From positions 1 to 25,248 of the IMG/VR virus record IMGVR_UViG_3300010883_000416: a DNA stretch of 25,248 nt; one strand, given 5' to 3'. How positions within the stretch are numbered: the stretch's first letter is position 1; each line of letters begins with the position of its first letter. The translations under genes were made by a program, and so were the position numbers. The notes beneath the pieces were generated by a model that was not told the DNA's origin, searched no databases, and saw only the letters and a list, made by a program, of their open reading frames with translations. This document shows, in pieces, positions 3,133-24,615 of this stretch. This DNA is from a virus.

Positions 3133-3142
3133 AACTTTTAAT

Positions 3143-3150
3143 TATTTATG
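3143..3150 (-). promoter_or_regulatory. Late-promoter-like octamer CATAAATA
   Basis: The motif matches the ATAAATA core of T4-type late promoters (consensus TATAAATA). It lies in the 33-base gap between portal and fibre genes, 10 bases before the fibre ATG. No Shine-Dalgarno sequence is seen between motif and start. Inferred from the motif and its position only. Confidence 0.5.
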
Positions 3151-3165
3151 GCTCCTGAAGTTAAA

Positions 3166-4950
3166 CTACGCTGGTGGCAGGGCACTATCTCCGCCCATAT
3201 CTGCCGGGATGGGTTCTAGTGGCGGTGCTTCACCTGGAGGAGCCTCTACTGGTCCACCGAAATCTGGGGGAGCTCCACCTGGAGGTGGTAGTGCGGAACC
3301 ACCACCGAGATCTCCACCCATCGGTGCAGCACCCGCTTCAGCTCCTGCCTCCATGCCCTCTCTCCAATTGGGACCACCGGTTTCGATCTGTGCTAGTTCG
3401 AATGACATTGATTTATCCTTCTTAAGCCATGCTCTATTTTCAAGAATATCAGAATCGCTCCATCCCAAATACTTCTTTTGACAGTATGTACTAGAAACCA
3501 TTTCATTTTGTGCCATATTACTATAATTAGTGGCTTTAACATCAAATATTTGCTGTTCTCTAAGAGTGTGAAACGATCCTGGTGGGACAAACTTAACATC
3601 AAAATCCTTTTCCTTAAGATTGTAATGTTTCCACAACTTTTTAAGTTTTAAGTGTGTAACAAATGTATTTTTAAGACCTTCAGCGAATTTCTGTTGTAAT
3701 CGCATGATAAACTTAGCAAATTTAAGTTCTTCCCGTAAAACACTAGTATCCGATGTAAAAGTTGATTCAGGGTCAAGTCTTCCGGTGGGAACTTTAAGAG
3801 ACTTGTATAATTTCTTAACAAAATACAATAAATCGTCTAGGTCGGTCATGCTTGGACCATGCTGTAGACCGTCAACGGTAGTTCCATCGCTTCCTTGCCT
3901 TTTTGCGAACCAAAAACTATCTAACATAGACTGAGGATTAAATGCATTAACATTACCACCTTGAGCCGCATCATATGTTTTACGATTAAAGTAATTATGC
4001 ATTAATTTACGTAAATACGCTTCTGCCTTCGGAGGAGCCATATTACCGACATCAACATTAAATACTAACCGTTCCGGAGATCTTACAAGTCTATGAATAA
4101 CAACAGCATCCTCCATCATTGTCAATTGCCGGTAGGATCTCCTAGCATTTTCAATAAATGGTAATCTCATTGTCTTATCTTCATTCCATACACCACTATG
4201 AGTGTATGTTATCTGATTCTTATCAAAAGGTATATATTCAAACTTTTCAATTTGATTAGTCTTAGGGTCCATTATAGGGCGTCTCAGTAGATACCCTTTA
4301 ATCATTAAATTTTGAACATTATCATATATAGGATCTATAAGCTCCCCCGGAACCTCTAATATACCTAAAATACCGGCATCGGAATGTTCTTTATGTATAA
4401 TGTGTTCCCAATAGACCTCCCCTTCGATAAGTAACTGTCTAAAATAAGACCACCCTTTATTAGGTAAGTCAAAGTGGGTTACAATTTTTTGGAATTCTTT
4501 TTGAACTTCTTCTTGAGCTGTATTACTTAATCCGGTTTGTGACTTAAACTTAACACCCGCTACAATATCATTCTCATCGGTATTAATCATATCATCACAG
4601 ATTTCATCTAGTGCATCCGCAACTTCGGCATAAGCCGCCATTATTCTATAATCCGTAAGGCGTTTATACTTATCAGGATCTACATGGGCATATAAGTAAT
4701 GACTATAATTACTATCAGCTCCTATAGCGCCAATCTCATCAATCGACATGTTGGTCTGAGATACACTATGCTGTGCAAGTGCCTCGTCACGCTTGGTTCC
4801 AGTTTTATAAAATAGCTTATACTTTGGATTAAGGTCCTCTATATTATCTAATATGTCTGGGACAGAATTATAAGGTAGCTTTGAGGCTACATATTTCATT
4901 AAACTCCGGCCAAATGTTGAGTTTTTTCCTTTATTTGGTTGATGATCCAT
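3166..4950 (-). CDS. gp20: Portal vertex protein, gp20 family
   Basis: This is the dodecameric portal through which DNA enters the head and to which the tail attaches. The 594-residue protein is a little longer than T4 gp20 (about 520). The most diagnostic segment is residues 273-320: YRQLTMMEDAVVIHRLVRSP followed by ERLVFNVDVGNM and a KAEAYLRKLM helix. This matches the T4 pattern of an ML-EDALVIYR helix and a VFYVD-GNMP turn. Residues 344-420 continue the family pattern (DSFWFAKR, VDGLQ, SLKVPTGRL, SVLREELKFAKFI). Residues 525-594 form an unusual Gly/Pro/Ala-rich tail. It starts at ATG 4950 and ends with TAG. An ATAAATA motif ends 6 bases before the start. In T4 the prohead protease and capsid genes follow gp20; here the next gene is a fibre. 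Confidence 0.95.
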   Translation of the reverse strand: MDHQPNKGKNSTFGRSLMKYVASKLPYNSVPDILDNIEDLNPKYKLFYKTGTKRDEALAQHSVSQTNMSIDEIGAIGADSNYSHYLYAHVDPDKYKRLTDYRIMAAYAEVADALDEICDDMINTDENDIVAGVKFKSQTGLSNTAQEEVQKEFQKIVTHFDLPNKGWSYFRQLLIEGEVYWEHIIHKEHSDAGILGILEVPGELIDPIYDNVQNLMIKGYLLRRPIMDPKTNQIEKFEYIPFDKNQITYTHSGVWNEDKTMRLPFIENARRSYRQLTMMEDAVVIHRLVRSPERLVFNVDVGNMAPPKAEAYLRKLMHNYFNRKTYDAAQGGNVNAFNPQSMLDSFWFAKRQGSDGTTVDGLQHGPSMTDLDDLLYFVKKLYKSLKVPTGRLDPESTFTSDTSVLREELKFAKFIMRLQQKFAEGLKNTFVTHLKLKKLWKHYNLKEKDFDVKFVPPGSFHTLREQQIFDVKATNYSNMAQNEMVSSTYCQKKYLGWSDSDILENRAWLKKDKSMSFELAQIETGGPNWREGMEAGAEAGAAPMGGDLGGGSALPPPGGAPPDFGGPVEAPPGEAPPLEPIPADMGGDSALPPA

Positions 4951-4956
4951 TAAAAA

Positions 4957-4964
4957 TATTTATT
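4957..4964 (-). promoter_or_regulatory. Late-promoter-like octamer AATAAATA
   Basis: The octamer lies in the 42-base AT-rich gap upstream of the portal gene and ends 6 bases before its ATG. With T4-like spacing (start site about 5 to 7 bases after the motif), transcription would begin at or next to the start codon. No Shine-Dalgarno sequence is present. Confidence 0.55.
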
Positions 4965-4992
4965 ATGTATTATAATATTTAGTATTGCAAAT

Positions 4993-6666
4993 TCAACTTA
5001 CAATGTTTATATTCATTAAATCCATTGATGTGATTCTATAAAAATGAGATGAGTAAAACTCTGATATCTTTTCATCTAATACTTCTTTAGATATTTCTTG
5101 ATTTTCTATCTGTATTAATTCCCGGATCATACACTCAGCAATATGAAGCGCCATACACAGTGTATTGTTATTTTGATCGAATGAAATGAACTTCGGATTC
5201 CCAGAATTAATACATACACATAACTGACCATTAGCTTCTATTATCCGAGAAGCTAGATTTTCCTTTCCGGAGCCAAATGGCTCAATTGAGTGCCATAAAT
5301 ATTCGGTATTTGAATCATTGATTAATTTTGCAATATTAGAGGCTATAATATTATTATCTTCTCTCATATTTCCGGATTGCTTCCTCCGTAAATACATATC
5401 GGTCATGATAATAATGAGTTCCCGATATACAGTTAATTTAAATGGAGATACTATTGGATGATCATCTCTTAAAGAGTAATGTAATGTGTTTTTCCCGGGG
5501 AATCCTTTAGAGTCTAGTACCGTGCTAAGATCATTACAAGTAATAGTACCTACCATATTATAAAATGGTGATAATACTCCACTACTACGACAGATTTTAT
5601 AGCCTCTTTCTTTTGAAATTGAATCGAGTATTGTATTAACCATATGATCGTCATCTAATCGAAATTTACACACATGACCCTGTGATACTATATCAATACC
5701 ACGAGTTAACGATACCTCCGGTATGGTTTTCTTATGAATAATTGATAACCTAATATCAATTTCAGCTGTTTTAGACTTTCCGTTAATTGTATAGTTAAAC
5801 TTCTTTGTTATATCACCTAATGGCTTACCGACTAGGGGATGCTGAAGAATAACTAATTGGTCGTTGATAGTGATACTAAGTGATTTACCTTTACTAGTAT
5901 AAGATGTAACTAAGTGACTAAAAAATGAACTTAAAGTGGTATGTAGCTTTTCGATCCACTCACTATCCATCGCAGCTTTGAGTTGATCATCGACATTAAG
6001 TATAGTAATAACGGTACCAGTATCACCTTTAACTTGCGTTTGAGATGATTCCTTTATTATGGGTGTAAATCCTGTTAGATACGCTGTTTGATTCCACTTA
6101 CAGTATATATCATTAACTTGTTCAAACCCCTCGATACATCTAAGATCTATTATATCATCAGATGTAAGTATTAGTTCAGATTCGGTATAGCAACAATCAC
6201 TACTCATATAAGGGGTACCATCTTCTTCAAATACATGCCATTCACCCGCGGCATTTTTATGAGCTTCTACCTTACGAGGCTTATAATCAACTATAAAACT
6301 CTTACCGGAACGGTTTTTAGTGTCAATCCGCCAATATACATCATTACTATGAGAAAGCTTATCATTACTAATTTTACCACCTATACCCATATAATTTAAT
6401 TGAGGTGATCCGGTTTTAGAATTGTAAGAGTTACCATATGTAAAGTATTTTTCAAATCCTGTTAACTCTTCATCATCAACGTTATGATTAAATCCAATAC
6501 CATCATCACTAATAATAATATTGTCTTCGGAAACCACAATATCAATGCTAGATGCACCGCTTTGAACAGCATTCTTAACTAGCTCTGTAAGCGCTTGATG
6601 ATAAGTAAGCGTCGATTGTAATGAATTACTAATATTTGCAGCTGCTTTAATTCGTATTAGTTTCAT
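4993..6666 (-). CDS. GHKL-type ATPase (Hsp90/MutL/MORC-like), function unknown
   Basis: The N-terminus carries the Bergerat ATP-binding fold. The N-box is ALTELVKNAV with Glu28 and Asn32; the G1 box is DDGIGF at residues 54-59; the G2 box is GIGGK at residues 94-98 after a YFTYGNSYNSKTG linker. A GTVITI strand near residue 218 resembles the last strand of this fold. The pattern best fits the Hsp90-like HATPase_c_3 group that includes MORC-type ATPases. No TOPRIM domain, histidine-kinase phosphoacceptor or MutL nuclease motif is seen. The C-terminal 180 residues are mostly helical and unassigned. Length is 557 residues, ATG start, TGA stop. It follows the glycosyltransferase after 8 bases and precedes the portal, so it is probably co-transcribed with virion genes. 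Candidate roles are a chaperone for virion proteins or a counter-defence factor; neither is shown by the sequence. Confidence 0.7.
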   Translation of the reverse strand: MKLIRIKAAANISNSLQSTLTYHQALTELVKNAVQSGASSIDIVVSEDNIIISDDGIGFNHNVDDEELTGFEKYFTYGNSYNSKTGSPQLNYMGIGGKISNDKLSHSNDVYWRIDTKNRSGKSFIVDYKPRKVEAHKNAAGEWHVFEEDGTPYMSSDCCYTESELILTSDDIIDLRCIEGFEQVNDIYCKWNQTAYLTGFTPIIKESSQTQVKGDTGTVITILNVDDQLKAAMDSEWIEKLHTTLSSFFSHLVTSYTSKGKSLSITINDQLVILQHPLVGKPLGDITKKFNYTINGKSKTAEIDIRLSIIHKKTIPEVSLTRGIDIVSQGHVCKFRLDDDHMVNTILDSISKERGYKICRSSGVLSPFYNMVGTITCNDLSTVLDSKGFPGKNTLHYSLRDDHPIVSPFKLTVYRELIIIMTDMYLRRKQSGNMREDNNIIASNIAKLINDSNTEYLWHSIEPFGSGKENLASRIIEANGQLCVCINSGNPKFISFDQNNNTLCMALHIAECMIRELIQIENQEISKEVLDEKISEFYSSHFYRITSMDLMNINIVS

Positions 6667-6674
6667 TGTAAGAG

Positions 6675-7499
6675 TTAACTTAGTTCCCGGGTACCACGTT
6701 CAAAAAGTCGCCGTATTATATCAGGATTACGCTTATTCGCAGAAGAGAGGTGAGTATATTTGACAATATCCGCTCTTCGAGGTGGATTCTTAACTTGTAA
6801 CGTCACCGGTGAAATACCATCATGTACCATCTTAATTGAACTGTACCATTGCTCAAAAACCGGGTTGAATTCTTGATCTAAAAAATTATACCTTAATAAA
6901 CTCATATTTTTAGGTGTTTTAATCAATTGAATTATATCTTGTGAATATCTTTTTATCCACTCAACGTCTACACCACCAAATACACCATGGTTATATGTAT
7001 TTCCAGAGAAACCTCTATACTTGTACATGAAATCCGCAATATCACCGGTAAGGGTACGACCATACATTACATTACTGAATATTTTCTTGAGCTGACCTCT
7101 ATAGAACTCAGGAGTATCTTCAATACATTCGACAGCAACTGGAGCGGTTAAGAACTCATCGGTAGGCTTGTCCCACAAGTAGATATCGTTATCTAAATGT
7201 AAGAACGGGGCATTTTGCATAGAATATGTTAATATTTTACTATATGACCCTAGGTAGGTAGGTGTCCCCTGTGAGTTTAACCGCTCCAGTGTGTCGAAAG
7301 TCTTATCAAATTGTATATGATCACATACCTGGCTTATAGCCTCATGATCACCATAAAAAAATACCTCTTTAAAGTGCTTTTTTGCATATTTAACCGCAAT
7401 ACTTAACGATAGAAGTAGCGTCTCTTGATTACTAAACCCAGAGTATCTGTGGTTAATATTGGACTTCGCCCAATAACTAAATATCACGCGTTCAATCAC
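6675..7499 (-). CDS. GT-A-fold glycosyltransferase-like protein (resembles DUF6734)
   Basis: The 274-residue protein opens with a beta-strand, MIERVIFSYW. It contains a DXD-type metal/nucleotide-sugar motif, FLHLDNDIYLW (Asp103-Asn-Asp105), preceded by the KILTYSMQ helix typical of this group. Further family-like features are YNHGVFGG at 169-176, DQEFNPVFEQW near 208-218, and a late YTHLSSANKR (His250) that could supply the last metal ligand. No signal peptide or membrane segment is seen, so it should act in the cytoplasm of the infected cell. The start is GTG at 7499; an AGGTAG sequence abuts it. It lies between adhesin-like virion genes and the GHKL ATPase, so it may glycosylate a virion protein or a host surface precursor. 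The sugar and acceptor are unknown. Confidence 0.65.
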   Translation of the reverse strand: MIERVIFSYWAKSNINHRYSGFSNQETLLLSLSIAVKYAKKHFKEVFFYGDHEAISQVCDHIQFDKTFDTLERLNSQGTPTYLGSYSKILTYSMQNAPFLHLDNDIYLWDKPTDEFLTAPVAVECIEDTPEFYRGQLKKIFSNVMYGRTLTGDIADFMYKYRGFSGNTYNHGVFGGVDVEWIKRYSQDIIQLIKTPKNMSLLRYNFLDQEFNPVFEQWYSSIKMVHDGISPVTLQVKNPPRRADIVKYTHLSSANKRNPDIIRRLFERGTRELS

Positions 7500-7514
7500 C
7501 TACCTAAAAGCCTA

Positions 7515-7530: not shown

Positions 7531-7531
7531 G

Positions 7532-11100: not shown

Positions 11101-11827
11101 TAGCTTTTGATTCATCTATAAAAACGACCGGGTCATATTGAAACTGCTGAAATGCATAGTAAGTTCCGCGGTCGTTAGTTAATGTAGTAGTATCACTAGT
11201 ACTAACATCGAAGTAGTCTTGACTTAAATCATATAGCTCCTCAATATTAACTGAAAAATCTAATAAGAAGTCTGAAAGTGGTGGTTTTGCGGACTTGTAC
11301 TGTAATATATACTCATCACGATCAATTAGACTAATAACTTGATTATATACAAGCTTCTCAACACCCTTCATAGAGCCTATTAGATCGTATTTTACCTTCT
11401 GATGTTTAATAAGATCACGTTCCTTACTAAAATATAGTACTATTTCTTTCAATCTAGCAGAGAAAAACGGTAACGCGACATCTAGATCCGCCGGGTCATT
11501 TAAATCAATATTTCTTAACCATCGGCGCTCTTCATCTGTTGAATAATTAATAGCCGTATTCTTAAGAAGTGTTTTATATAGTGATCTAATCCCTTCTTCA
11601 GCTGTAGTACTACTAATACCCTTAACAGCATACCAAGCATGTAGATATGTATTATATATAGATAGGGAATCCCCAGGGCTACCTCCTTGAAGTTGAGATT
11701 TACTAATCCAATCAACCAGGTTAAACGGCTTAAGCTTATCTTCTTTAGTTTCAGCCGTTAAAGAAATAGAGTTTGTTATACTGTTTAGTGTAACTACGTT
11801 TTTAAGTCTATTAAGTGAGATTTCCAT
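8135..11827 (-). CDS. Large multidomain virion protein with PKD-like and cadherin-like C-terminus
   Basis: The 1230-residue protein begins with a helical domain at about residues 40-180. It has YNTYLHAWYAVKG, then YSTDEERRWLRNIDLNDPAD and a helix ending SKERDLIKHQK; this resembles the N-terminal attachment domain of long structural proteins in marine T4-like phages. The middle is beta-rich and unassigned. At roughly residues 1000-1110 there is a PKD-like Ig fold (FIYDFGDES, later HTYTF and a TASVSAVHS strand). The last 70 residues are a cadherin-like repeat (YTLVQGIGDDNNNLFYIY, then QYSVRLRSTDELDAYTEKVF). It overlaps the upstream beta-propeller gene by one base (TAATG). It ends with TAG, in frame with the next gene. 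Likely role: elongated adhesin or decoration on the tail or baseplate. Confidence 0.6.
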   Translation of the reverse strand: MEISLNRLKNVVTLNSITNSISLTAETKEDKLKPFNLVDWISKSQLQGGSPGDSLSIYNTYLHAWYAVKGISSTTAEEGIRSLYKTLLKNTAINYSTDEERRWLRNIDLNDPADLDVALPFFSARLKEIVLYFSKERDLIKHQKVKYDLIGSMKGVEKLVYNQVISLIDRDEYILQYKSAKPPLSDFLLDFSVNIEELYDLSQDYFDVSTSDTTTLTNDRGTYYAFQQFQYDPVVFIDESKAIVSLIESYETSLQDLSASGILTSDLQQLVASVSFTEDDVQELPDLEFVNYIKDKVNLNILKKAELTKAHTGVDTYYLSAGSTSSQFVSGQLYAPDKPYRNLHNRYNASINFFPDVSSVYSAKQLGRFFLPDNIGTLNYFSLKPKPKILTDKIVPGTIYTYPDPDIYGSGIGASKSANPAPIDHVEDISWVSANKSNDRLHGDIINQVSLQKFYPYSSKEEESLEPQVGISRSTDSMDFWSGDERDVWANEDVYTPLVRNLFNVTERQSDLMVTDKVLYNWKTDIYGNEYGLYKKIEPTIASSVIDPSSIVCASIDAETFDKPGDEFSEYNYYDGGRVPGLDPNPESLAPPQLYTNGLSGFGLIDPTFDKISYGGNFLPDLCPIEPEVFYCDRFDGGLYNYSPDSYIVTSSGINFSDVFTDFADTTFPDTYYFSSTYCDDNLGALYEHAVESSTLYTPNTSATNTQLDDTVDTFEAISTLSDQSAVFGLVEVRNKYGIGLGSPLSDAFSEVFDRYSAHTELSGIYYDVKDNNIQDIDVIYDILVLYGTDYILFEKINFDYDTGKILPSTLNNVIVKTSGGNLEKIIPLFYNEKGKYIMCGRMRELSGSNIAYPQLIKLDIETLALTTEFPTTSSESLQFSLPTNLYQYSIMDIDTPLLSYNDTLDKFNLTYIGKLSGAETGVPNVSGIYAVFSHDFKYTIDRLELTDASVFHSEMIEAIPQSTTKGTDSYTVSLSNGVTDIDLSSTLGGALSAFEFTLTINSLGLSAGQYSFTKFIYDFGDESDIVTNEREIIWDDPSALGTTDLDALLETLGPDWGDPKMHQPAHTYTFDTQAATFTASVSAVHSNFDIDIYNIVFESSPYSIKSSVGDLKLIDTVYYTDINNTEKVLLTLETQNPKLISNVVLQKNLNEVNTLPDLSDLTYTYTLVQGIGDDNNNLFYIYTGGSGAQELKASYSLSAGQYSVRLRSTDELDAYTEKVFIVIIENDQC

Positions 11828-14496
11828 TATATATTCTTTATATCGATGATTCTGTCTTCTTCTCCAGTATAGGTGGGATCGGTAGTATCAAATAGTCCCA
11901 ACCCTTCACGTAGTTTATAATCAAACATCAAGTCTATGGTGCCATTTTTTGTAATCCAATCAGCATTGGCACTAGCTGTTTCTTTTATTGTTGTCATTTT
12001 ATTACTCCAATCAATAACACCATGTACTTGCTCCTGTGTAGTTGTTGTGATATAACTATAAAACTCATAATACTTATTGACGGTATCCCAATCGTCTCCG
12101 TATAATCCCCAGCCCCATGATTGCTCATATGCACTTAATGGGTATGATGAAAGCCCACTGTAAGTTGTATTATAATGAGTATTAAATGGATGTGCGCTTA
12201 AAGCGTTTCCAATACTAAAGTTACCAACCACTACACTATCAATATTCGCGATACCTGGAACTACCTTCGAATAATTACTATTAAATAGCTCTCTTATTAC
12301 TACAGGTTCACCGGCTGTTAGTAAGTATGTCTCGGTATCTATCGCCGATCCTAGATTTTGACCGTATTTTGGATTACATTCATATCCCATTGAGTCAAAA
12401 CTATCATCAATATTATCACGACCACCAAATAACCTAGACTGCTTTATTGATAACAAGTCAATTAATCTCTTAATATTTGGAGGATATGGTAATCTATGAT
12501 TATCTAAGGTGTATCCTATCATATCAGCAAAACTGTATAAACTGTCAATTGTACCTGTGTCTATATCTGCATGATTAGGTGAAAAGTTTGCTATTTTTTC
12601 ATATATTTTACGTCCAAATATTTCCGGTTCTGACGTATTGTCACCTAAACTCGGAAGAAGCCAATCAGTAAAGTTTTTATTATTATCTAATACATCCTGG
12701 AAGATATAAGACCTTAAAGTTTCCGAAAAATTATGATCTTCATTGTATTTCATGATCCGATTGAAATCCGTAATAGATATAACCTCGAAAATATTTGATA
12801 CTCCGGATAGCGGAGGATAGTGAAACTCCCCATACTCTTCAGTACCATAAGTCCCATGATAGTCGTAGTTAACTATCCTTCTCCACCCGGTCCAGTCTCC
12901 AGATGCTCTGATATCTGTTGGCATATGATCCGGATCAGTCTGATGTAGCTCCCATTGAGGGGGTATCTGATCAGCTGTTTTATTGACATCACTAATACTA
13001 GAATATGATGATAAAGCACCAATCTGAGAGGAGAGTACTTCGCCAGTATTTAAAGCTGTTGTCGATGCGTTAAATATGTATAATCTAGCATCAGCATTAT
13101 TAATAACTAATATATTATTAGCGGTATCTGTACTTATACCTTCTAAAGCTTGACGAGCTCGAGAATAGTACCAACTAATTGGAGGATTTGTATTATAAAG
13201 AGGATCTGCGAAGGGCTGACCAACAAAGAATGTATCTGTAACAGATGGATTTACGCTAGAAGGTGCATCAAAATCACCCTTATGTATTCTAGACACTAAA
13301 TGTCGACCGTGAGTGAACCAAGCATGATTTTCAAAATCTGTAGTAATTGATCCTGGTAAATATATCTCATCGTATGTGCTATTTAGCCGGTTATTAGCAG
13401 ACGAAGTAATATAGATAGTCCCTCTAATACTACTATCGGTAGAATCTTTATAATATAAACTAGTTGGAGCATCGTAAGGTACAGTAAATGTAATATTACC
13501 ATCCCCGAGATCTGATACTCCGTCTGTATATGCATTTTCAACATCCGAAGTTAATGCAAATTGAAATGTATGTGTATCATAAAATGTATTAGCAAAGCTA
13601 TATTCATGACCTCTAATAAGGTTAAGTTCTGGATTTGGTCTTCCACCTGTTAAGTTTAAAATATTTGTTAAGTCGTCTTTAACTGCGACCCATGCACTCA
13701 AGGGTGGTGATATACCGAAGTTAAACGACTCTATCTCCGGTTCGGTGTCGAAATCTAGTGTGTGGAAGTTTGAACCGGCAATTGATGTAACCTCGTACAT
13801 TAGTGTACAGTTTTCTCTTAACCTAGCTATTTTACCACATCGCGCTCTCGTATCATTAGGGTTATTTATACATACAACCCATGCATGTTCGAATCTATCT
13901 ATGGTAATATCAGATGGCATGGTGCCATTATCAAACTCATGTCTACCTATCTCTGTACCAGTCGAATTATACTTTACAACCATGCTACATAACGGATTAG
14001 AATACGTCACCCATACATTGTCTTTACTGTCAGTCGCGACTTGGGTTGGATTAAGCAGAAGTTCATATTTAACATGTGGCCATACATAAGGGTTATCATC
14101 ATCATCCACATCTTCATGAAACCTATCATCATTATGAGCATGTTCATTGTAATAATATGTTGTTATATAATTATCCTGCGACAGCATTGTACCTCCACCA
14201 TAAACACTCGCCTGACCGGCACCGGATACCCACGGCATATACACCGGGGTCTGTACCGGTACTGCGGAGGATATAATCGAATGAGGTGGATCCTTAGAGA
14301 GCTTTAATGTCGATACGGCATCAAATAGTGTAACCCATATATTATCCTCACTATCAACCGCTATAGATGACGGTGTTATACTATCTAAGTAGTCTAACGG
14401 GTAATTATCAGTAACATAATACCGTAAGTCTAGTGCTGTTAAAGGTGCTCTATTTAGGTCGTATTGTAAGAGTTGATCATTGTCACCATCCGCCAT
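11827..14496 (-). CDS. NHL-type beta-propeller virion protein with inserted cupredoxin-like domain
   Basis: Repeated blades share the pattern P-x-x-(I/V)-x-x-D-x-x-(D/E)-(N/H)-x-W-V. They lie at residues 42-66 (PSSIAVDSEDNIWVT), 150-180, 193-226, 380-406 and 451-478. This is the NHL/streptogramin-lyase-like propeller, here probably a binding scaffold. Residues 286-365 form an inserted cupredoxin-like beta-domain (LNLIRGHEYSF, HTFQFAL, ITFTVPYDAPTSLYY). The usual Cys/His ligands after the LYY strand are absent, so copper binding is unlikely. The C-terminal 400 residues are unassigned. The first ATG (14496) falls inside another blade whose first half is encoded upstream (see 14497-14697), so this start is probably not the true beginning. 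AAGGA lies 9 bases before the ATG and could permit internal initiation. Confidence 0.6.
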   Translation of the reverse strand: MADGDNDQLLQYDLNRAPLTALDLRYYVTDNYPLDYLDSITPSSIAVDSEDNIWVTLFDAVSTLKLSKDPPHSIISSAVPVQTPVYMPWVSGAGQASVYGGGTMLSQDNYITTYYYNEHAHNDDRFHEDVDDDDNPYVWPHVKYELLLNPTQVATDSKDNVWVTYSNPLCSMVVKYNSTGTEIGRHEFDNGTMPSDITIDRFEHAWVVCINNPNDTRARCGKIARLRENCTLMYEVTSIAGSNFHTLDFDTEPEIESFNFGISPPLSAWVAVKDDLTNILNLTGGRPNPELNLIRGHEYSFANTFYDTHTFQFALTSDVENAYTDGVSDLGDGNITFTVPYDAPTSLYYKDSTDSSIRGTIYITSSANNRLNSTYDEIYLPGSITTDFENHAWFTHGRHLVSRIHKGDFDAPSSVNPSVTDTFFVGQPFADPLYNTNPPISWYYSRARQALEGISTDTANNILVINNADARLYIFNASTTALNTGEVLSSQIGALSSYSSISDVNKTADQIPPQWELHQTDPDHMPTDIRASGDWTGWRRIVNYDYHGTYGTEEYGEFHYPPLSGVSNIFEVISITDFNRIMKYNEDHNFSETLRSYIFQDVLDNNKNFTDWLLPSLGDNTSEPEIFGRKIYEKIANFSPNHADIDTGTIDSLYSFADMIGYTLDNHRLPYPPNIKRLIDLLSIKQSRLFGGRDNIDDSFDSMGYECNPKYGQNLGSAIDTETYLLTAGEPVVIRELFNSNYSKVVPGIANIDSVVVGNFSIGNALSAHPFNTHYNTTYSGLSSYPLSAYEQSWGWGLYGDDWDTVNKYYEFYSYITTTTQEQVHGVIDWSNKMTTIKETASANADWITKNGTIDLMFDYKLREGLGLFDTTDPTYTGEEDRIIDIKNI

Positions 14497-14697
14497 CCAA
14501 ACAGATCCTTCACTGTCAACTGCAAAACCTAACAGTCCGCTAGAAGTCGGAGTAACAGTCGAAATGGGATCAACCGTTGTTAGTGAGTTATCATCAGGAT
14601 CTTGATAAGCATCATATGCGAGATTGTTATAATACGCAGGCTTAAGTTGCCAAAACGTTGTCGTTGGTGAAGTCGCAATATAATAATTCAGTACATC
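14497..14697 (-). other. In-frame coding extension of the propeller gene without a usual start codon
   Basis: The 67 codons between the TAA of the PKD gene and ATG 14496 are open in the propeller frame. They read as protein: YYIATSPTTTFWQLKPAYYN near the start and GFAVDSEGSVWMADGDN across the ATG. The latter is a normal NHL blade cut by the annotated start. No ATG, GTG or TTG occurs in frame here. An ATG at 14696-14694, just after TAAG, is out of frame and reaches TGA after one more codon. Adding one base there would give a reading frame that starts MYLNYYIA. The choices are a non-standard start (CTG at 14691), readthrough of the TAA, a real frameshift, or a one-base sequence error. Confidence 0.6.
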
Positions 14698-16008
14698 TTA
14701 ATCAAAGAATGCCGGAGGTTCCATGCTGGCAGTACCTTGTATAACTACCTCTTTACTGGACCCATCAACCCGTAAAAATCCATTATAAGAGCCAAGAGTT
14801 GAAAACTTAAACGTGTCATTTAATGTTATATTAGAACTAGTAAGTACTTCAGATGATGATACAGTTAAATTTACAGTATAGGCATCATTTTGATTGACCA
14901 CCGGTACATCATGAACCGCTGACATAGTTGGAAAATCGTTTTTAATATAATTTCCATCATCATCTGCTAGTGTAGCGGAAAAGGTAATATAGTTATGTTC
15001 AAACTTTTTACTGTTAATATTAAACCCCTTGATACCATTCGCGGTAAAGGTTATTTTTGTTGGGGCATTAAACTTTACTTGTAGAGGTAAAACTGCTTTC
15101 TTTGTTTCAAAGAAGTTTAAATATATCTTTTTATAGTCATCAATATTATCATCACCTAACTGCACTACAAACCTGCTATTCTCAAACCCGGCGAATAAAA
15201 GCACCGGTGTTGGGTCTTGACTTGAGTATGAATTTGGTAAGTCATCAACATAATAGAAGTCACCTATACCGGATGTTCCCGCTAAGGTGGAATTTGAGTC
15301 ACCTTTGCATGCATGGACTAATTCATCACCTACATACTTAACATATATCTCTTTGTTTGTCGTAAGTACTTTTGTCACCGGGGTCTTTGATGTACTAGTT
15401 TGAACTATTCGCCACGTAGGTGTAAAATGTATATCTCTATCCGTCGCGTAGTCCTTTTCTGTTACTGCCCTCGATGCACTACCTTTACTGTATAAATTAA
15501 TATAATATCCTCGAGCTGATAATGTTTCATATGTTTGCCAGCTATTAAGTCTAGTGAGCTCTAGGCGGTTACTGGTACTACTAGCAGTAACATATTCCGG
15601 TTGCTTTGCGTCTGCGCGTTTTGAGCTCCATATAATCTCATCCGGGAGGTAATTATAAACTATAACTTTCTGGCCAAATGTTGATGTATGTGGAATCCCT
15701 CGACTGTCAATAAATGTGCAATTGATTTCATACTCACCCGGATACTTATACCACTTGCTAACTTCTAAGCCTTCGTCAGTTGTACCGTCACCAAAGTCCC
15801 ATATTATTTTGTTATTACTAAGTTTTATCTCATCCGGTAGAGTGCTAAGTATAGGGGTAATCGTATAACCACCAATTGGTAGGGTGTAGCTAGGAATTGA
15901 TGATCCATAATTTATATATACCGCTCCAGTAGGAGCCGTAACTTTAAATTGAACCAGTACGTCTTTAATACTTTCCGAAAATACAGTAGAGATGTCAGTA
16001 TTAGCCAT
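14698..16008 (-). CDS. PKD-domain virion protein
   Basis: The 436-residue protein has a clear PKD (polycystic-kidney-disease-like Ig) domain around residues 25-120. It contains the signature WDFGDGT at 70-76, followed by KYPGEYEINCTFIDSRG and a closing KVIVYNY strand. Downstream regions are beta-rich (KIYLNFFETKK, KITFTANGIKGFNIN) and end in VVIQGTASMEPPAFFD. PKD domains in phage structural proteins usually provide carbohydrate or protein binding on the virion surface. It starts MANTDIS, resembling the start of gp6C (MANTSES), 13 bases after that gene. An AAAGAA run precedes the ATG. Its TAA is in frame with the propeller gene, so the two may descend from, or still form, one long polypeptide. 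Confidence 0.65.
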   Translation of the reverse strand: MANTDISTVFSESIKDVLVQFKVTAPTGAVYINYGSSIPSYTLPIGGYTITPILSTLPDEIKLSNNKIIWDFGDGTTDEGLEVSKWYKYPGEYEINCTFIDSRGIPHTSTFGQKVIVYNYLPDEIIWSSKRADAKQPEYVTASSTSNRLELTRLNSWQTYETLSARGYYINLYSKGSASRAVTEKDYATDRDIHFTPTWRIVQTSTSKTPVTKVLTTNKEIYVKYVGDELVHACKGDSNSTLAGTSGIGDFYYVDDLPNSYSSQDPTPVLLFAGFENSRFVVQLGDDNIDDYKKIYLNFFETKKAVLPLQVKFNAPTKITFTANGIKGFNINSKKFEHNYITFSATLADDDGNYIKNDFPTMSAVHDVPVVNQNDAYTVNLTVSSSEVLTSSNITLNDTFKFSTLGSYNGFLRVDGSSKEVVIQGTASMEPPAFFD

Positions 16009-16021: not shown

Positions 16022-16900
16022 TTATGAGAGTACAACTTCAATTTTCGATAATATATCTGTCTCACTAAAAAAGTATGGATACTTAAAGTATGGAAGCTGT
16101 AGATTTTGACTGGTTACTATAATATCCTTTTCCGGATAGACCGGATTCCAAACCAAAAAGCTCAGACCGTCTACCTTTATGGTCGTATCATCTGTACGAC
16201 GAGTATATACACTATCTACACCCTCAATTGATAGTATTTCTGTCGTAATACTTGTCATATCTATCACTTGACCTAGCGAGTTATTGATGACATTAAAGTA
16301 TTTCTTAATAATAGCAGCTGTTTGCTCTTTAATCGCGTCATTGTTGGTTGTAGTATTAGCAGACTGTACAACATATAACTTTGTACTGTCTGTAACATCA
16401 GTTGTAATTGTTTCGGTAGTGTTAGTTACACCTATATCGACAGCTACATAGACCGGATCGACAATTACCGGGTCTAATGATAGCATTTTTGTTAATTCTA
16501 AGTCGGTAGCAATAATATTTTTTTGTGCTGTTGTTAAAAAGTTAACTGCAACATTAGTAGAAGACCGTAAGTTAATCTTCGGTACCGCATATATGTATAC
16601 ATTGTTAAAGTTTGTTGTGGTTGCGAACGTTATTTGATTATACAATACACGCGATTCTAGATTAGGGGCTGTTAGTTTAAGATCATCATGAAGATACTTT
16701 AAATGTCCATCAAGATAGTCATTATTATTAACTACCTTAACACTACTTATGATATTACTAAAGTGCCGTTCAACAAACACCTCAAAGTCATTAGACGTTA
16801 CTAACTTATTTTGGCTAGCAAAATATATTGGTGCTTTCTTCTTAATCTCAGCAACAGACTCCTTAGTGTTAGGAAATGTTGATTCGGATGTATTTGCCAT
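16022..16900 (-). CDS. gp6: Baseplate wedge protein gp6, C-terminal half
   Basis: The 292-residue protein matches the C-terminal part of T4 gp6, the gpJ-like wedge subunit that forms the inner ring of the baseplate. The key block is KKKAPIYFASQNKLVTSNDFEVFVERHF at residues 24-51. It corresponds to the widespread (N/K)AP-x-(F/Y)(F/Y)-x-SQNRAVT-x-x-DYE motif. Later segments (PVYVAVDIGV; QTAAIIKKYFNVINNSLGQ; ITTEILSIEGVDSVYTRR) follow the usual order of this family. Its ATG (16900) directly abuts the TGA of the N-terminal half in the same frame (TGAATG). AAGAAG lies a few bases upstream, which could support termination-reinitiation. Confidence 0.85.
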   Translation of the reverse strand: MANTSESTFPNTKESVAEIKKKAPIYFASQNKLVTSNDFEVFVERHFSNIISSVKVVNNNDYLDGHLKYLHDDLKLTAPNLESRVLYNQITFATTTNFNNVYIYAVPKINLRSSTNVAVNFLTTAQKNIIATDLELTKMLSLDPVIVDPVYVAVDIGVTNTTETITTDVTDSTKLYVVQSANTTTNNDAIKEQTAAIIKKYFNVINNSLGQVIDMTSITTEILSIEGVDSVYTRRTDDTTIKVDGLSFLVWNPVYPEKDIIVTSQNLQLPYFKYPYFFSETDILSKIEVVLS

Positions 16901-17830
16901 TCATACTTCTTTTAAGTCCGTAAACGATATATATGTTAAGTTAGCAGGTCGGATACTTTCCCGAATATCTAAGAACTGAGTAGATGTATATAGTGTTAAT
17001 GGAAACTCATCGATAGTGTTAGCTCCTAGTACTCCGGATTCACCGTCACTTACTGTATAATATATAGCTACTGTATCTCCCTCTTTTAATTGCTGACCTG
17101 TTATATTATTACCAAACTTTATTTCTATGCGCTCATTTTCATTAAATCTCTTTTCAAAAACCTTATCATTTGAAGTGTATAAAAATAGCGATGTAACTTC
17201 CTTAAACTGTGACCACTTATCAGTAACTGAATCTTTAATATATACATCAATATTAAAGTAATCGATATTTTTATCACCCACAGTCAATATAACTTCTTCA
17301 AACGGCTCACCATTAGATGTATATAAGGGATACTCTTCATACTTTCCTTGATATAATAAATTCTCATTACCTATAGACGCGATTGATTCTTCAGGTGTAG
17401 TGTTTTTACTAAACGATATGTCTTTATTAACCGAATATGTTATACCACCTGCATTAATAAATGTATATCTAGGTATTGTATATGTACCGACACTTAAATT
17501 ACTGCTTCCTTTAGCTGTTATGTTTAAATTAGATGTCTGATACCCTATAGGCTTGTAGTTCAGTAACTTAACTATACGATTAATATTTTCATATATCTCA
17601 GATTCTGAAAATAAGCTTTCAGATGACGTCCTATTTAAGTAAAATAGTAAAACATGATAGCTATATGCTATAATATCGATTATTGACGATAGGTTACTGC
17701 CTTCAAATATTTTATCTGTAAATATGTTCTGGTCTGTAAGTCGCTTTACAATAAGATCTTTTAGGCTTACAGCATCAAAAGCCGCATATGCATCAGTAGG
17801 TAGTGTAAAATCTGTTAATTCGTTGCTCAT
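16901..17830 (-). CDS. gp6: Baseplate wedge protein gp6, N-terminal half
   Basis: The 309-residue protein matches the N-terminal part of T4 gp6. It has LKDLIVKRLTDQNIFTDKIF, then EGSNLSSIIDIIAYSYHVLLFYLNRTSSE (residues 44-72), YENINRIVKLLNYKPIGYQTS and a later IEIKFGNNITGQQLKEGD. The EGSNLS-IIDIIAYS-H-L-FYLN string is highly characteristic. The two halves sum to 601 residues, close to the single T4 gp6 of 660. Its start overlaps the stop of gp25 by four bases (ATGA), as expected for translational coupling. The TGA at 16903-16901 separates it from the second half. Either gp6 is made of two chains in this phage or the stop is bypassed. Confidence 0.88.
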   Translation of the reverse strand: MSNELTDFTLPTDAYAAFDAVSLKDLIVKRLTDQNIFTDKIFEGSNLSSIIDIIAYSYHVLLFYLNRTSSESLFSESEIYENINRIVKLLNYKPIGYQTSNLNITAKGSSNLSVGTYTIPRYTFINAGGITYSVNKDISFSKNTTPEESIASIGNENLLYQGKYEEYPLYTSNGEPFEEVILTVGDKNIDYFNIDVYIKDSVTDKWSQFKEVTSLFLYTSNDKVFEKRFNENERIEIKFGNNITGQQLKEGDTVAIYYTVSDGESGVLGANTIDEFPLTLYTSTQFLDIRESIRPANLTYISFTDLKEV

Positions 17831-18358: not shown

Positions 18359-18366
18359 AATAAATA
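18359..18366 (+). promoter_or_regulatory. Late-promoter-like octamer AATAAATA
   Basis: It is in the 72-base divergent gap between gp25 and the plus-strand gene and ends 6 bases before that gene's ATG (CTTACA-ATG). The spacing equals that seen before the portal. No Shine-Dalgarno is present, and no matching motif was seen for gp25 on the other strand. Confidence 0.55.
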
Positions 18367-18372
18367 CTTACA

Positions 18373-18933
18373 ATGGATAAGAAGTTTGATAAAATTTACG
18401 AAGGCATGGTAACGAGATTCCAGGGTGGAGGTGTTCTTCCAGGTGATGTTGTTAAGTTTATAGATGATGCCACAAGCAACGAATGGCTCAAGTCGCAAAA
18501 CGAAACAATGGGTGCAAAGATTGCGGAATTAATGCAATCGGACAATATTTTACGGGTAGGAGCAGTGAAAACAGTAAGACCTACCGTTGCTGGGACGAAT
18601 ACCTCTCATGCAGCAGATGAGTTTTATGCTGATGTGGTTAAGGAGATTTCCCCGGGATTATTTACAGATGTTATTACTGTACCTGTTAGTATTATAATTG
18701 TTCAAGGTACAGACCTAGGAGACCAGCAACATCCGGATAGTTCATATATGGATGATCCTACTGAAATTAAGCCCAAGATTCCAGAAGTTAAGGCTGATGA
18801 TGATATGCTACATCCAGTGTATCAGACAAAAACTAATGACGATAACCGAAAATTAGGTAATAAGAATGTACCAGGCCGGAATGGAGCCGTGGATAACATG
18901 ACGACTTCGGTATATCTAGGTGGGTTTAAGTAA
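18373..18933 (+). CDS. Unrecognised protein, possibly virion-associated
   Basis: The 186-residue acidic protein opens MDKKFDKIYEGMVTRF and then reads GGGVLPGDVVKFIDDATSNEW at 18-38. The middle (RVGAVKTVRPTV; ADEFYADVVKEISPGLFTDVITVPVSIIIV) looks like a compact alpha/beta domain. The last 60 residues are polar and probably disordered, ending VDNMTTSVYLGGFK. No signal peptide or membrane segment is seen. It is one of only two plus-strand genes and has its own late-type motif, which suggests late expression and a virion or assembly role. It converges on the clamp-loader gene with 5 bases between stops. I do not assign a function. Confidence 0.7.
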   Translation: MDKKFDKIYEGMVTRFQGGGVLPGDVVKFIDDATSNEWLKSQNETMGAKIAELMQSDNILRVGAVKTVRPTVAGTNTSHAADEFYADVVKEISPGLFTDVITVPVSIIIVQGTDLGDQQHPDSSYMDDPTEIKPKIPEVKADDDMLHPVYQTKTNDDNRKLGNKNVPGRNGAVDNMTTSVYLGGFK

Positions 18934-20360: not shown

Positions 20361-20385
20361 ATCTAGGTATAGGGGTATATCTTAA

Positions 20386-20829: not shown

Positions 20830-20831
20830 CT

Positions 20832-20978
20832 TTACCCATTTAAGAGTATGTCATTCTTACCCTTAGACGGTGCCGACTCGACTGATACTGAGTTATTCCT
20901 TAACCATGTTAATAGCTCGTTTAGCTTTTCTGGTTGAATCGCGAAAGACCCGTGTCCTAATACTTGTACTGTTACCAT
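20832..20978 (-). CDS. Small 48-residue protein upstream of dUTPase
   Basis: ATG 20978 opens a 48-codon frame, MVTVQVLGHGSFAIQPEKLN onwards, with a predicted amphipathic helix (EKLNELLTWLRNN) and the end KNDILLNG, stopping at TAA. It is supported by tight packing (2 bases before dUTPase), by filling an otherwise empty gap, and by a protein-like composition. The N-terminal half reads as two short beta-strands and a helix. No family is assigned. The sequence upstream is AT-rich (TATTATAATATAAAT) with a perfect TATAAATA overlapping the ATG, so an earlier transcript start is needed for expression. Confidence 0.65.
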   Translation of the reverse strand: MVTVQVLGHGSFAIQPEKLNELLTWLRNNSVSVESAPSKGKNDILLNG

Positions 20979-20985
20979 ATTTATA
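20978..20985 (-). promoter_or_regulatory. TATAAATA overlapping the small gene's ATG
   Basis: This is an exact T4 late-promoter octamer, but its last base is the A of the ATG. A transcript from it would start inside the small gene and could carry only dUTPase and later genes. A TATAAT hexamer lies just upstream (about 20985-20992) and might serve as a host-type -10 box. Promoter function is uncertain. Confidence 0.3.
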
Positions 20986-21020
20986 TTATAATAGTTAGGT
21001 ATTTAATAATCAACTAATTA

Positions 21021-21028
21021 GATAAATA
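21021..21028 (+). promoter_or_regulatory. Late-promoter-like octamer GATAAATA
   Basis: It lies in the 55-base divergent gap (20979-21033) and ends 5 bases before the ATG of the small-terminase-like gene (TTAAT-ATG). No Shine-Dalgarno is present. T4-like spacing would put the transcript start at the A of the ATG. Confidence 0.5.
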
Positions 21029-21033
21029 TTAAT

Positions 21034-21510
21034 ATGACCGAAGAAAATATAGACTTTGACGATTTAGATGCCGATAGTTTAATATCACAACTCCGTGAAA
21101 ATACCAATATAGCTAAGAACAGTAAAGAGATATGCGAGGAGTTTGAACTATCAAAGGAGGATCTTGAAACGTTTATTTTAAACTCCACCGGTAAACTTAT
21201 TAAAGATAGCCTCGAGACAATTGATACAATAAAGCAATATGTACTATCCGCTCCAAATCCAGAAGAGGTGCATTCATTAGCAGAGTTATATAAGGCTAGT
21301 ACGAGTGCCCTAGATACCTTAAATAAGGTACTGTTACAGAATAAGAAAAGTGCTACACAGGTAGGTATTAAGCAAATGGAGATTGAATCAAAGAGTCAAT
21401 TAGCTGATAAAAAAGAAAATAAACGGATGCTAACTAGAGATGATATTATAAAAAAATTAATTAACGATGCGAAGGTAATTGAAGTTGAGGAGACAACATC
21501 ATTAACCTAG
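21034..21510 (+). CDS. gp16: Probable small terminase subunit, gp16-like
   Basis: The 158-residue, mainly helical, highly charged protein has the profile of T4-type small terminases: an acidic N-terminus, a central helical pair, then a basic/polar C-terminus. The most telling part is residues 56-120: KDSLETIDTIKQYVLSAPNP, then EEVHSLAELYKASTSALDTL and NKVLLQNKKSATQVGIKQME. This resembles the central oligomerisation helices of gp16 proteins. Small terminases form rings that regulate DNA packaging by the large terminase motor (gp17). The large subunit is not in the window, which weakens the call. Transcribed opposite to its neighbours from its own late-type motif. Its 3' end overlaps the convergent gene by 9 bases. 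The alternative is a helical scaffold or assembly protein. Confidence 0.55.
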   Translation: MTEENIDFDDLDADSLISQLRENTNIAKNSKEICEEFELSKEDLETFILNSTGKLIKDSLETIDTIKQYVLSAPNPEEVHSLAELYKASTSALDTLNKVLLQNKKSATQVGIKQMEIESKSQLADKKENKRMLTRDDIIKKLINDAKVIEVEETTSLT

Positions 21511-22665
21511 TGATCGGCTATTTGTAGCAGTCGACTCAAGTTTCGGGATTTTATTCTTTAATATATCGACATCTACTCTCTTTTTCTCAATCTTCATATT
21601 AATACGAATTTTACCCGCTACTTGATTGTTCTTATGATCTTTAATATGTCTAAGGACTCTATCAAGACTTTCACTTCCACCTAAATAATCTTTGATAATC
21701 GAGTTTATATCACTCTTGACTACAGACATTCTAGCATAATGCTCAGTATCTACTATTAAATTTGTACCATGTGATGTAGTTGGTTTAGTTATAATTAACG
21801 TTTTAACTTCATCAGTAGAAGCATCATCTATTAAACTTATCATATTTCTTCTATATACATTGTTAAGCTTTTGGGACATTTCTAATTCTAAATCTCTGGT
21901 CTCGTCTGTAACAATGTAATCAACTACACTATTATGAGATACCGGGACATCTAATAGTGCTGATTTGATATCCCATTGCCATATAGTACTTGTATCTTTT
22001 ATACCTTCGACATTTTCTAACTGACCTATACTCTCACTAAAATCCGCGAAATAATGCTTATCAACTTCAGATAACTCACTTTTAACGTTCTCCTGTATCT
22101 TTGGATGTGACGATCTAAACTTATCTAACCAAAATATTACAAATTCTGTCTCTAAATCGTCAAACCCAATAGCATCTTGTAGGTCTAACGTAAGGTCTTT
22201 ATCAGGGGATTCAACTATATCGGCATATACTTCCTTTGTTTCTACTGTAGAGTCAGTTCCGGTGCTATTAGGCGTAGTAATACGTACTTGAACAGCTACT
22301 TGATCACCGGATTTTTTAGGATTTCCGGATTCATCTATTATTAGCTTTTGAGTATCAATAATCTGATCTTTAATATTCTTATTATCTAGCTTTTTCTCTG
22401 TAGTTATACTTTCTAACTTTACTCCGCCCTTATTATTATCTGCAACCTTAAACGTTCCGCTATTAAGTTCCGTAAAGAAAGCTACGTCACTTGTTATAGG
22501 ATCTGGCGTACACTCATTATACCACTTAGAATTGCATATAACAATCTCATCATCATACTCTCGAACAACAGATAAATAATCTGTCGACTTCTTATGTAAA
22601 TCAATAGTACTTGTTAAATTTAGGTCAACAAGAAATGGGTCAAATGTTTTTCCTTCTTCAGCCAT
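21502..22665 (-). CDS. Unrecognised protein in the baseplate block
   Basis: The 387-residue acidic protein begins MAEEGKTFDPFLVDLNLTST. Its first 160 residues are mixed beta and polar and include AVQVRITTPNSTG. Residues 165-230 are charged and helical (DLETEFVIFWLDKFRSSHPK; EVDKHYFADFSES). The last 120 residues include ELEMSQKLNNVYRRNMISLI and a beta segment VAGKIRINMKIEKKRVDVDI. No signal, membrane span or catalytic motif is visible. It starts 2 bases after the hub-like gene and probably shares its transcript, so a baseplate or tail-assembly role is the reasonable inference. No family is claimed. Confidence 0.65.
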   Translation of the reverse strand: MAEEGKTFDPFLVDLNLTSTIDLHKKSTDYLSVVREYDDEIVICNSKWYNECTPDPITSDVAFFTELNSGTFKVADNNKGGVKLESITTEKKLDNKNIKDQIIDTQKLIIDESGNPKKSGDQVAVQVRITTPNSTGTDSTVETKEVYADIVESPDKDLTLDLQDAIGFDDLETEFVIFWLDKFRSSHPKIQENVKSELSEVDKHYFADFSESIGQLENVEGIKDTSTIWQWDIKSALLDVPVSHNSVVDYIVTDETRDLELEMSQKLNNVYRRNMISLIDDASTDEVKTLIITKPTTSHGTNLIVDTEHYARMSVVKSDINSIIKDYLGGSESLDRVLRHIKDHKNNQVAGKIRINMKIEKKRVDVDILKNKIPKLESTATNSRSLG

Positions 22666-22667
22666 TG

Positions 22668-24257
22668 TTATCGGATTGCTTCATTAAATTCAAGGTTTCT
22701 ATATGAGTATGGTTTAATACCAGTAACTTCATTTGTATACCCGGATGGTGTTAATTTATGTACAACATTTGTTATTAGATATATACCTAATATCTTATCA
22801 TCATAATCACTTTCAAAGTATGGACCTTCGCGACTTAGACTAAAAAATCTCCCGGCTTTTCTTGTAGTGTCACCTTTCACTATAAACGACATTGCATTAC
22901 CTTTAAGGAGACCTTGCATAAGAGTAAACGACTTTCCAGCTCGGACAGTATTTTCTAACTTTGATGTACTAGAGTAAGATACATTAATGTTTTTGTTTTC
23001 ACGTCTCGAATCGTCAATTAATATATTATTGCGTGCGCCACCTTTTGCAGATCCCGGAAGGTTGTCAACATAAAGGCGCTGAAATTCGTCTCTTACACTT
23101 TCTATTTCGTTTTGTGCTTGAGATACTCTAAACCTACCACGCTTATGATCACTGAAGTGTACTGGTCGGGTTGTCAATAGACCTTGGGTATCTAATCCGT
23201 TGCTGTCATAAAATAAGTACTGACTAACAACCGAAATATCCGGAAAATGTAAATTTGATATAATTGACACACCTTTATGAGGTACTCTAGACTCACCCGG
23301 GATGGTCTCCTTAGGTAAGGTGGACTGCATATCTAAAACTAACCGCTCCCGGAGCCATGGACCGGCGGTATCTTTATCTGTCATAGCTAGATCAAAATAC
23401 GTCGACATAGGTAATAGTGACCACTCTTCACTCGTACGCTCTAACCTCAAAATACACTTTTCACCCGTAGTCGATAAATGTGACTGTAACATATATTCTA
23501 TGTCATTTACCGCTTTACCTTGAGCAGAGGCAGTATAAAACGATTTTGTCATTCCTTTATCCCAAGTTGTAGAAAATTTATTATTCATTTCCGGGCATGT
23601 ACTGGTTATAATATCCTTTATAATGTCACCGGTGTGGCGCTCGCGTTGAGTATCAGACATTTGAGCTAGTGGGGTCGTTATCTGGGTATCATTATTTTTC
23701 TTATTAAATTGACCTGTACTGTAGTATGAATTCCTTTCCAGTAAGAGCTGGTACTTATAATCATGAAATGACAACTTCTTAATCTTCTCAGCCGGTTGGT
23801 CTTTGTCCGATCCAGGTATACCGGGGCGGAGATCTTCTACATCATAAATAGCAAATAGATGTTGAACAGAATATACGTCACCTGTCATTGGTTTAGACTC
23901 TTCAATCACATCACCTTCAAGAGGTGATATTTCAATGTATAGAAAGTCTCTACCGTCCCCCCGGAATCTATACGCGGACATGTCCTGTAAACTACCGTTA
24001 ACCACTTGCTGAGATGTTCGCTCTAATACATCATCTGGATTTTTGATGACCATGGTTCCTCTGTGGTGAAACTCTAAAAACGAATCAACGAGAGTTAAAT
24101 CAAGTATTGAGCCGCGGCGTATCCTGACAAACCTACCATCATCGTTAAATAAGAACACTTTAAACGCAAAATATCTATCATCAATTCGCTCTGCGTCAAA
24201 TTCTGAACCATGAGCTTTTAGTATGTCACTAATAGCATCTGCAATCTTCGAGTCCAT
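22668..24257 (-). CDS. Putative baseplate hub protein, gp27-like
   Basis: The 529-residue protein has the layout of phage tail-hub proteins. An N-terminal barrel contains IRRGSILDLTLVDSFLEFHH and GTMVIKNPDD (residues 43-75), matching the usual strand plus (G)-x-(L/I)-x-I-x-(D/N) turn of hub domains. A DIEYMLQSHLS segment near 253 fits the hub helical linker. The end has GIYLITNVVHKLTPSGYTNEVTGIKPY, like the final hub strand pair. T4 gp27 is shorter (391). The position between gp53 and the tail-cap gene on one side and other tail genes on the other supports a hub role: the central threefold part that carries the spike. The spike itself (gp5) is not evident. An ATAAATA motif lies 15 bases upstream. 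Confidence 0.5.
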   Translation of the reverse strand: MDSKIADAISDILKAHGSEFDAERIDDRYFAFKVFLFNDDGRFVRIRRGSILDLTLVDSFLEFHHRGTMVIKNPDDVLERTSQQVVNGSLQDMSAYRFRGDGRDFLYIEISPLEGDVIEESKPMTGDVYSVQHLFAIYDVEDLRPGIPGSDKDQPAEKIKKLSFHDYKYQLLLERNSYYSTGQFNKKNNDTQITTPLAQMSDTQRERHTGDIIKDIITSTCPEMNNKFSTTWDKGMTKSFYTASAQGKAVNDIEYMLQSHLSTTGEKCILRLERTSEEWSLLPMSTYFDLAMTDKDTAGPWLRERLVLDMQSTLPKETIPGESRVPHKGVSIISNLHFPDISVVSQYLFYDSNGLDTQGLLTTRPVHFSDHKRGRFRVSQAQNEIESVRDEFQRLYVDNLPGSAKGGARNNILIDDSRRENKNINVSYSSTSKLENTVRAGKSFTLMQGLLKGNAMSFIVKGDTTRKAGRFFSLSREGPYFESDYDDKILGIYLITNVVHKLTPSGYTNEVTGIKPYSYRNLEFNEAIR

Positions 24258-24261
24258 TACG

Positions 24262-24615
24262 TTACAGCTGGCTATTTATTAGACTTAATACCTCATTAAT
24301 ACGACCCTGCTGGATCACTTTAAGTATATCACCACCTTGAGGTAATATAACCGGATTTTTAATGTCATTTATAACAGCTATTAACCACCATAAATCAGTT
24401 GACCGGTATAATTTATAACTTAGTATATGCCATGCCATTGTATTGGGTACTTCGAAATTAAAAAATAAACTTTCGTCTAATTCTTCTGGTATATTTAACG
24501 TTTTTAAAATATTATAGAAATAATATTTATTTTCCGTATACATCTTAAAAATATTCTCAAACCGATCGGTAGGTATAGAGTCTAATTTAGGTAGTTCTGA
24601 TCGATATTTTGCCAT
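24262..24615 (-). CDS. gp53: Baseplate wedge protein gp53
   Basis: The 117-residue protein matches the gp53 wedge family, which helps join wedges around the hub. The core is at residues 57-98: PNTMAWHILSYKLYRSTDLW, then WLIAVINDIKNPVILPQGGD. The pattern D/N-T-x-(A/W)-x-x-(I/V)-x-x-x-x-Y-x-x-x-x-L-W-W-(L/I)-I-x-x-x-N-x-I-x-(N/D)-P is diagnostic. It ends with an ILKVIQQGRINEVL helix. T4 gp53 is longer (196). It lies 4 bases before the hub gene and 9 bases after the tube-cap gene. Confidence 0.88.
   Translation of the reverse strand: MAKYRSELPKLDSIPTDRFENIFKMYTENKYYFYNILKTLNIPEELDESLFFNFEVPNTMAWHILSYKLYRSTDLWWLIAVINDIKNPVILPQGGDILKVIQQGRINEVLSLINSQL
24273..24280 (-). promoter_or_regulatory. Late-promoter-like octamer AATAAATA before the hub gene
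   Basis: It lies inside the last codons of the gp53 gene and ends 15 bases before the hub ATG, so a T4-type start site would leave a leader of about 8 to 10 bases. Being inside a coding region, it may be chance. Confidence 0.35.

Follow-up and report, generated by a model that had tools for sequence, protein, structure and literature searches.

T4-type late promoter motifs placed against start codons in an uncultured clade of T4-like phages: probable leaderless late messages

The window and its motif sites

The window, the whole 25,248-base virus fragment that was analysed, carries a T4-type portal gene and clamp-loader genes. An initial sequence-only reading of this fragment placed an octamer, NATAAATA, at gaps of 10, 6, 6, 5 and 15 before the ATGs of the fibre, portal, 18373, 21034 and hub genes, where gap denotes the number of nucleotides between the motif and the start codon. 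All five positions were confirmed, each on the coding strand, and the first four sites do lie in intergenic DNA. At these sites NATAAATA conforms to the T4-type late promoter consensus (TATAAATA, with a variable first base); none of the five is TATAAATA itself, and the window's four exact copies of TATAAATA lie away from gene starts. The sites and their genes are as follows, with predicted +1 positions placed by T4 geometry.

1..3132, minus strand: fibre-like gene, running off the window; fibre is the label of the sequence-only reading
3143..3150, minus strand: CATAAATA, late-promoter motif of the fibre gene; gap 10, predicted +1 at about 3137, predicted leader of about 5 nt
3166..4950, minus strand: portal gene, T4 gp20-like (phrog_213, E 2.6e-99)
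4957..4964, minus strand: AATAAATA, late-promoter motif of the portal gene; gap 6, predicted +1 at 4951, predicted leader of 1 nt
18359..18366, plus strand: AATAAATA, late-promoter motif of the 18373 gene; gap 6, predicted +1 at 18372, predicted leader of 1 nt
18373..18933, plus strand: 18373 gene, 186 aa, without functional assignment
21021..21028, plus strand: GATAAATA, late-promoter motif of the 21034 gene; gap 5, predicted +1 at 21034, the A of the ATG
21034..21510, plus strand: 21034 gene, 158 aa; gp16-like is the label of the sequence-only reading
24273..24280, minus strand: AATAAATA before the hub gene; gap 15, within the final part of the preceding gp53-like gene

Searches of Pfam with the fibre-like protein, and of both PHROGs and Pfam with the 18373 and 21034 proteins, returned no match, which leaves the gp16-like label of the latter without confirmation. 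Under T4 geometry, the portal, 18373 and 21034 messages would begin at or beside the AUG, as had been proposed, with predicted leaders of 1, 1 and 0 nt. The 21034 message alone would be strictly leaderless; the portal and 18373 messages would retain a single nucleotide and the fibre message about 5 nt.

Homologues of these genes share the arrangement to differing degrees. The motif precedes all four 18373 homologues, at gaps of 6, 5, 6 and 11, and in the gap-11 homologue a GTG start lies 5 nt after the motif. In three of the four 21034 homologues the motif, or a version of it that differs in one base, stands at gap 5–7, counting a GTG start in one of them; the start called for the fourth is doubtful. 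Among the clade portal genes (best 80 of 560 relatives), the exact motif lies at gap 4–12 in 47 of 81, and a motif close to the ATG was seen in two of six fibre homologues (gaps 6 and 8). For the hub gene the outcome was mixed: the motif is indeed present at gap 15, but a promoter role was not sustained. As none of four hub homologues has a motif near its ATG and the window's own copy lies inside coding sequence, this site was treated as a chance occurrence, which it probably is. A search of viral contigs with the hub-gene protein found no relatives.

Within the window, ATAAATA is not enriched (16 copies against 19.1 expected), and yet 4 of the 16 copies fall 5–10 nt before a called start, where uniform placement predicts 0.03. 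The corresponding probability against A/T-only 7-mers, P = 1.8e-5, is optimistic because the 5–10 range was chosen with the gaps already in view, and weight was therefore given to a test on relatives. ATAAATA reads the same backwards, and the reversed pattern was useless as a control.

Two other genes of the window appear as two frames each. At 16022–17830 (minus strand), a gp6-like baseplate gene is present as two frames, an in-frame TGA being followed directly by ATG; the gene is a single open frame in relatives G009, G013, G019 and G025, and the split may represent fission, recoding or a sequence error. At 11827–16008 (minus strand), a large structural gene likewise appears as two frames, with an in-frame TAA beyond which the frame stays open; it is one frame in G009. 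Beside the portal, at 4993–7499, lie genes for an HATPase-domain protein and a DUF6734 protein, for which the clade set holds no homologues.

Motif-to-start distances in the clade

Relatives were chosen through portal similarity, the motif playing no part in the selection. A first portal scan gave six loci and a portal alignment the best 80 of 560 relatives, three of which were already among the first loci. The pooled set (the window, G001, G003, G004, G005 and L074 to L150) amounts to 1.11 Mb and 1115 genes, whose starts were taken as the first ATG of the longest open frame by a purpose-written ORF script, without curated annotation. T4, Syn9, part of KVP40, HTVC008M, BUCT-ZZ01 and part of phiW-14 were used for comparison.

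Across these 1115 genes, drawn from the best 80 of 560 relatives, ATAAATA precedes the ATG at gaps of 0 to 4 in 2, 2, 1, 2 and 7 cases and at gaps of 5 to 10 in 108, 41, 28, 19, 18 and 14, with few beyond. The sequence-only reading had suggested looking for a distance peak at 5–6 bases; such a peak is present in the relatives, and it stands exactly at 5. The abrupt left edge and the spike at gap 5 are found in none of T4, KVP40, Syn9 and BUCT-ZZ01, and the gaps themselves lie elsewhere: mostly 17–29 in T4, 20–28 in Syn9 with some further out, and 29–39 in KVP40. Over gaps of 3–12 the pooled count for ATAAATA is 244, compared with a mean of 43.6 for words of the same composition, the top-scoring of which are shifted copies that overlap ATAAATA. 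Antisense copies show no peak at gap 5. When one random gene was kept per protein family, 55 genes remained at gap 5, a count that removes the kinship among these related loci only in part. The gap-5 class is also well represented within single records (10 genes in G025, 10 in G013, 11 in G021, 13 in G019 and 7 in G003), and gap 5 is the top bin in all eight profiled clade records of at least 42 kb, tied with gap 7 in G010. Because the T4 late-promoter motif occupies positions –13 to –6 (PMC1524935), a gap of 5 would place +1 on the A of the AUG. In the clade's gap-5 class, A is the most frequent base at –13.

Start codon usage follows the same register. Open frames of at least 100 codons that begin at gap 5 start with ATG in 138 cases, GTG in 49, TTG in 2 and CTG in 1, whereas GTG accounts for only 7 starts at gaps of 7–12, against 124 for ATG (GTG rarer than at gap 5, Fisher 5e-7, with orthologues non-independent). 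GTG starts cluster at gaps of 5–6, and although many of the gap-5 cases are one orthologous gene, others are distinct. These counts bear on an alternative in which the motifs are real promoters whose messages carry leaders of 1–10 nt as a rule, strictly leaderless starts forming a minority. The pooled set offers it something, as gaps of 6–11 account for 123 genes and gap 5 for 108 (best 80 of 560 relatives) and portal gaps are mostly 5–11; however, both the primacy of gap 5 in the eight longer records and the concentration of GTG starts at gaps of 5–6 argue against it, and we consider it distinctly improbable.

Signals in the same register and the Shine–Dalgarno question

In 48 clade genes TATAAT, the –10 box of sigma70-type promoters, stands at gap 6, where its distances peak. 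In 66 distinct TATAAT upstream regions from clade loci and larger contigs, TTGA is prominent at –34 to –31, and this –35 element had played no part in choosing the regions. The peak at gap 6, together with TTGA at –35 spacing, points to promoters of a second kind that, independently, would set +1 on the start codon. In both motif classes, T occupies position –1 before 73–81% of start codons. ATAAATA is intergenic in 50% of its occurrences, as opposed to 11–14% for three control words, and 5% of motif-near genes overlap or abut the upstream gene, compared with 45% of other genes.

The sequence-only reading took the missing Shine–Dalgarno (SD) sequences as agreeing with leaderless translation. 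Near-motif clade genes do lack them, as leaderless mRNAs would, with SD 4-mers in 8 of 236, and possible downstream starts of near-motif genes, inspected for SD only, have them in 3 of 311. Within the clade this argument proved weak: 11% of all clade genes have an SD 4-mer between –20 and –4, a share not above that at other offsets, and motif-less genes are no different, so that the window's missing SD is a clade trait and alone no proof of leaderless messages. It was rejected as a stand-alone argument. The share elsewhere is 63% in T4, 64% in KVP40, 63% in BUCT-ZZ01, 53% in HTVC008M and 32% in Syn9. The argument does hold in cultured pelagi- and methylophages. In HTVC008M, Mosig and Melnitz, SD accompanies 2 of 22 motifs at gaps of 4–10 and 37 of 40 at gaps of 13–45 (Fisher 3.9e-11), and this near/far contrast is an internal control, as SD is used elsewhere in the same genomes. 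In T4, 20 of the 22 genes with a late motif 17–29 nt from the ATG have an SD.

The major capsid gene of the clade is an exception, with a conserved leader, no near motif and, by hand count, an SD 4-mer in 24 of 33 orthologues. The leader (e.g. L103:15127–15206, L089:15850–15929) contains a short GAGG..CCT stem and an GGTCGACA that is invariant in 11 aligned loci; only four pairs are predicted for the stem, one of them with a compensatory change, and the loci scanned gave no Rfam match.

Proximity to starts in genomes without SD, with the motif at most 12 nt away, would also be expected if ATAAATA were an A/U-rich translation signal beside the start codon and not a promoter. The motif nevertheless equals the T4 late consensus, lies mostly 17–39 nt from starts in T4 relatives, and goes with SD when it lies far from starts in the pelagi- and methylophages. 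A promoter-independent translation motif was rejected on the one-sided edge at gap 5 and on the –35 element that accompanies TATAAT in the same register, and we regard it as very unlikely. Chance, by which an A/T-rich motif simply recurs in A/T-rich intergenic DNA, is compatible with the unraised motif count of the window and with the hub site but is contradicted by the window placement test, by the pooled histogram with its spike over control words and by conservation of the motif in 18373, 21034 and portal homologues, and deserves next to no credence.

Machinery and phylogeny

Both a gp55-like sigma factor and the co-activator gp33 had been put forward as things to search for. The first was found: gp55 (phrog_234) is encoded in 14 of 24 clade records, relatives of the window included, the window fragment itself being without it. 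For gp33 (phrog_254) there was no match at E 0.1 in 15 clade records, among which a small diverged copy could escape; HTVC008M and Syn9 did match. The T4-type C-terminal motif of gp55 was not recognisable in seven clade gp55 sequences. With gp33 undetected and this motif not recognised, clamp activation stays putative in the clade.

Ribosomal protein S21 is encoded in 7 of 17 clade records (G013, G015, G019, G020, G022, G024 and G025) and in HTVC008M, Mosig and Melnitz, and not in T4 or Syn9; any role in leaderless translation is speculation. No IF3 was found in 14 phage records. In a separate observation, 25 of 34 orthologues in a clade protein family of no assigned function, recognised by MIVDDIKTYDG (e.g. 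L011:3700–4287), have TATAAT 5–8 nt upstream of the ATG.

In a single maximum-likelihood tree of 47 portal rows, its clade rows being the G records, the window and 24 further members taken at random, the clade portals form a group (99/95) apart from those of T4, KVP40, cyanophages and pelagiphages, with a program warning of long branches. Neither the portal alignment nor a single phage tRNA segment matched any of the genome contigs searched, which gave no pointer to a host. An alternative genetic code, considered for loci with few called genes, was rejected, as coding density under the standard code is high and very long genes occur there.

Comparison with known systems

Late messages of T4 have a leader that includes a ribosome-binding site. 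The clade shares with the T4 late promoters, which work through gp55, gp33 and gp45, the same motif save for its free first base, and it encodes a gp55 homologue; it differs in that T4 late motifs are mostly 17–29 nt from the ATG, nearly all of the genes concerned having an SD, and in that gp33 was not detected. Phage mRNAs without a leader are known from the Thermus phage phiYS40, for which leaderless middle and late messages are described (PMC3594737); in contrast, the messages considered here are deduced from promoter position, belong to uncultured T4-like phages and would arise from T4-type late promoters. In mycobacteria a 5′-terminal ATG or GTG suffices for translation and TTG or CTG does not (PMC4633059), and the clade's gap-5 genes show the same ATG/GTG pattern. 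The likeness is one of codon pattern, and nothing marks the clade's host as an actinobacterium. The Pelagibacter phages HTVC008M and Mosig and the Methylophilales phage Melnitz resemble the clade in that some of their late motifs stand at gap 5 with no SD, but they have others at gaps of at least 13 with SD, and their portals group with those of cyanophages, apart from the window clade. Leaderless phage mRNAs are thus known already, whereas a limited search of open-licence PubMed Central papers found no report of their production from T4-type late promoters.

Interpretation and significance

Taken together, the gap-5 peak and the presence of gp55 in relatives support the overall proposal of the sequence-only reading, and we judge it highly likely that the clade's motifs are T4-type late promoters set against start codons, which would give leaderless or nearly leaderless late mRNAs. 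A gp55-type sigma factor would read these motifs; at gap 5 transcription would begin with the first base of the start codon, and at gaps of 6–10 a few bases ahead of it. The resulting leaderless messages would be translated through recognition of their 5′-terminal start codon; operon-internal genes, many of which overlap or abut the preceding gene, are probably translated by coupling. The components of this account that can be read from the sequences themselves are the position peak, its register, the sigma70-type companions, start codons that begin with a purine, and a gp55 encoded by the clade. Counting against it are the common gaps of 6–12, which would leave short leaders, the retained leader of the major capsid gene, the mechanical calling of gene starts, the failure to detect gp33 or to recognise the T4-type gp55 C-terminal motif in the clade, and the lack of gp55 in the window fragment. 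A broader proposal, that the clade has largely abandoned leadered initiation for operon-leading genes, with sigma70- and gp55-type promoters fused to the start codon and phage S21 helping the host ribosome, is rather doubtful.

If the preferred reading of late promoters against start codons is correct, an uncultured clade has rearranged the T4 late-promoter system to yield mRNAs that start at the start codon, and the same rearrangement would be found in part in cultured SAR11 and OM43 phages. The cyanophage method failed to predict late promoters in pelagimyophages (PMC7029224), which near-start promoters may help to explain. Such an arrangement would also allow better calling of start codons in these genomes, and HTVC008M, Mosig and Melnitz make the idea of leaderless late mRNAs testable in culture.
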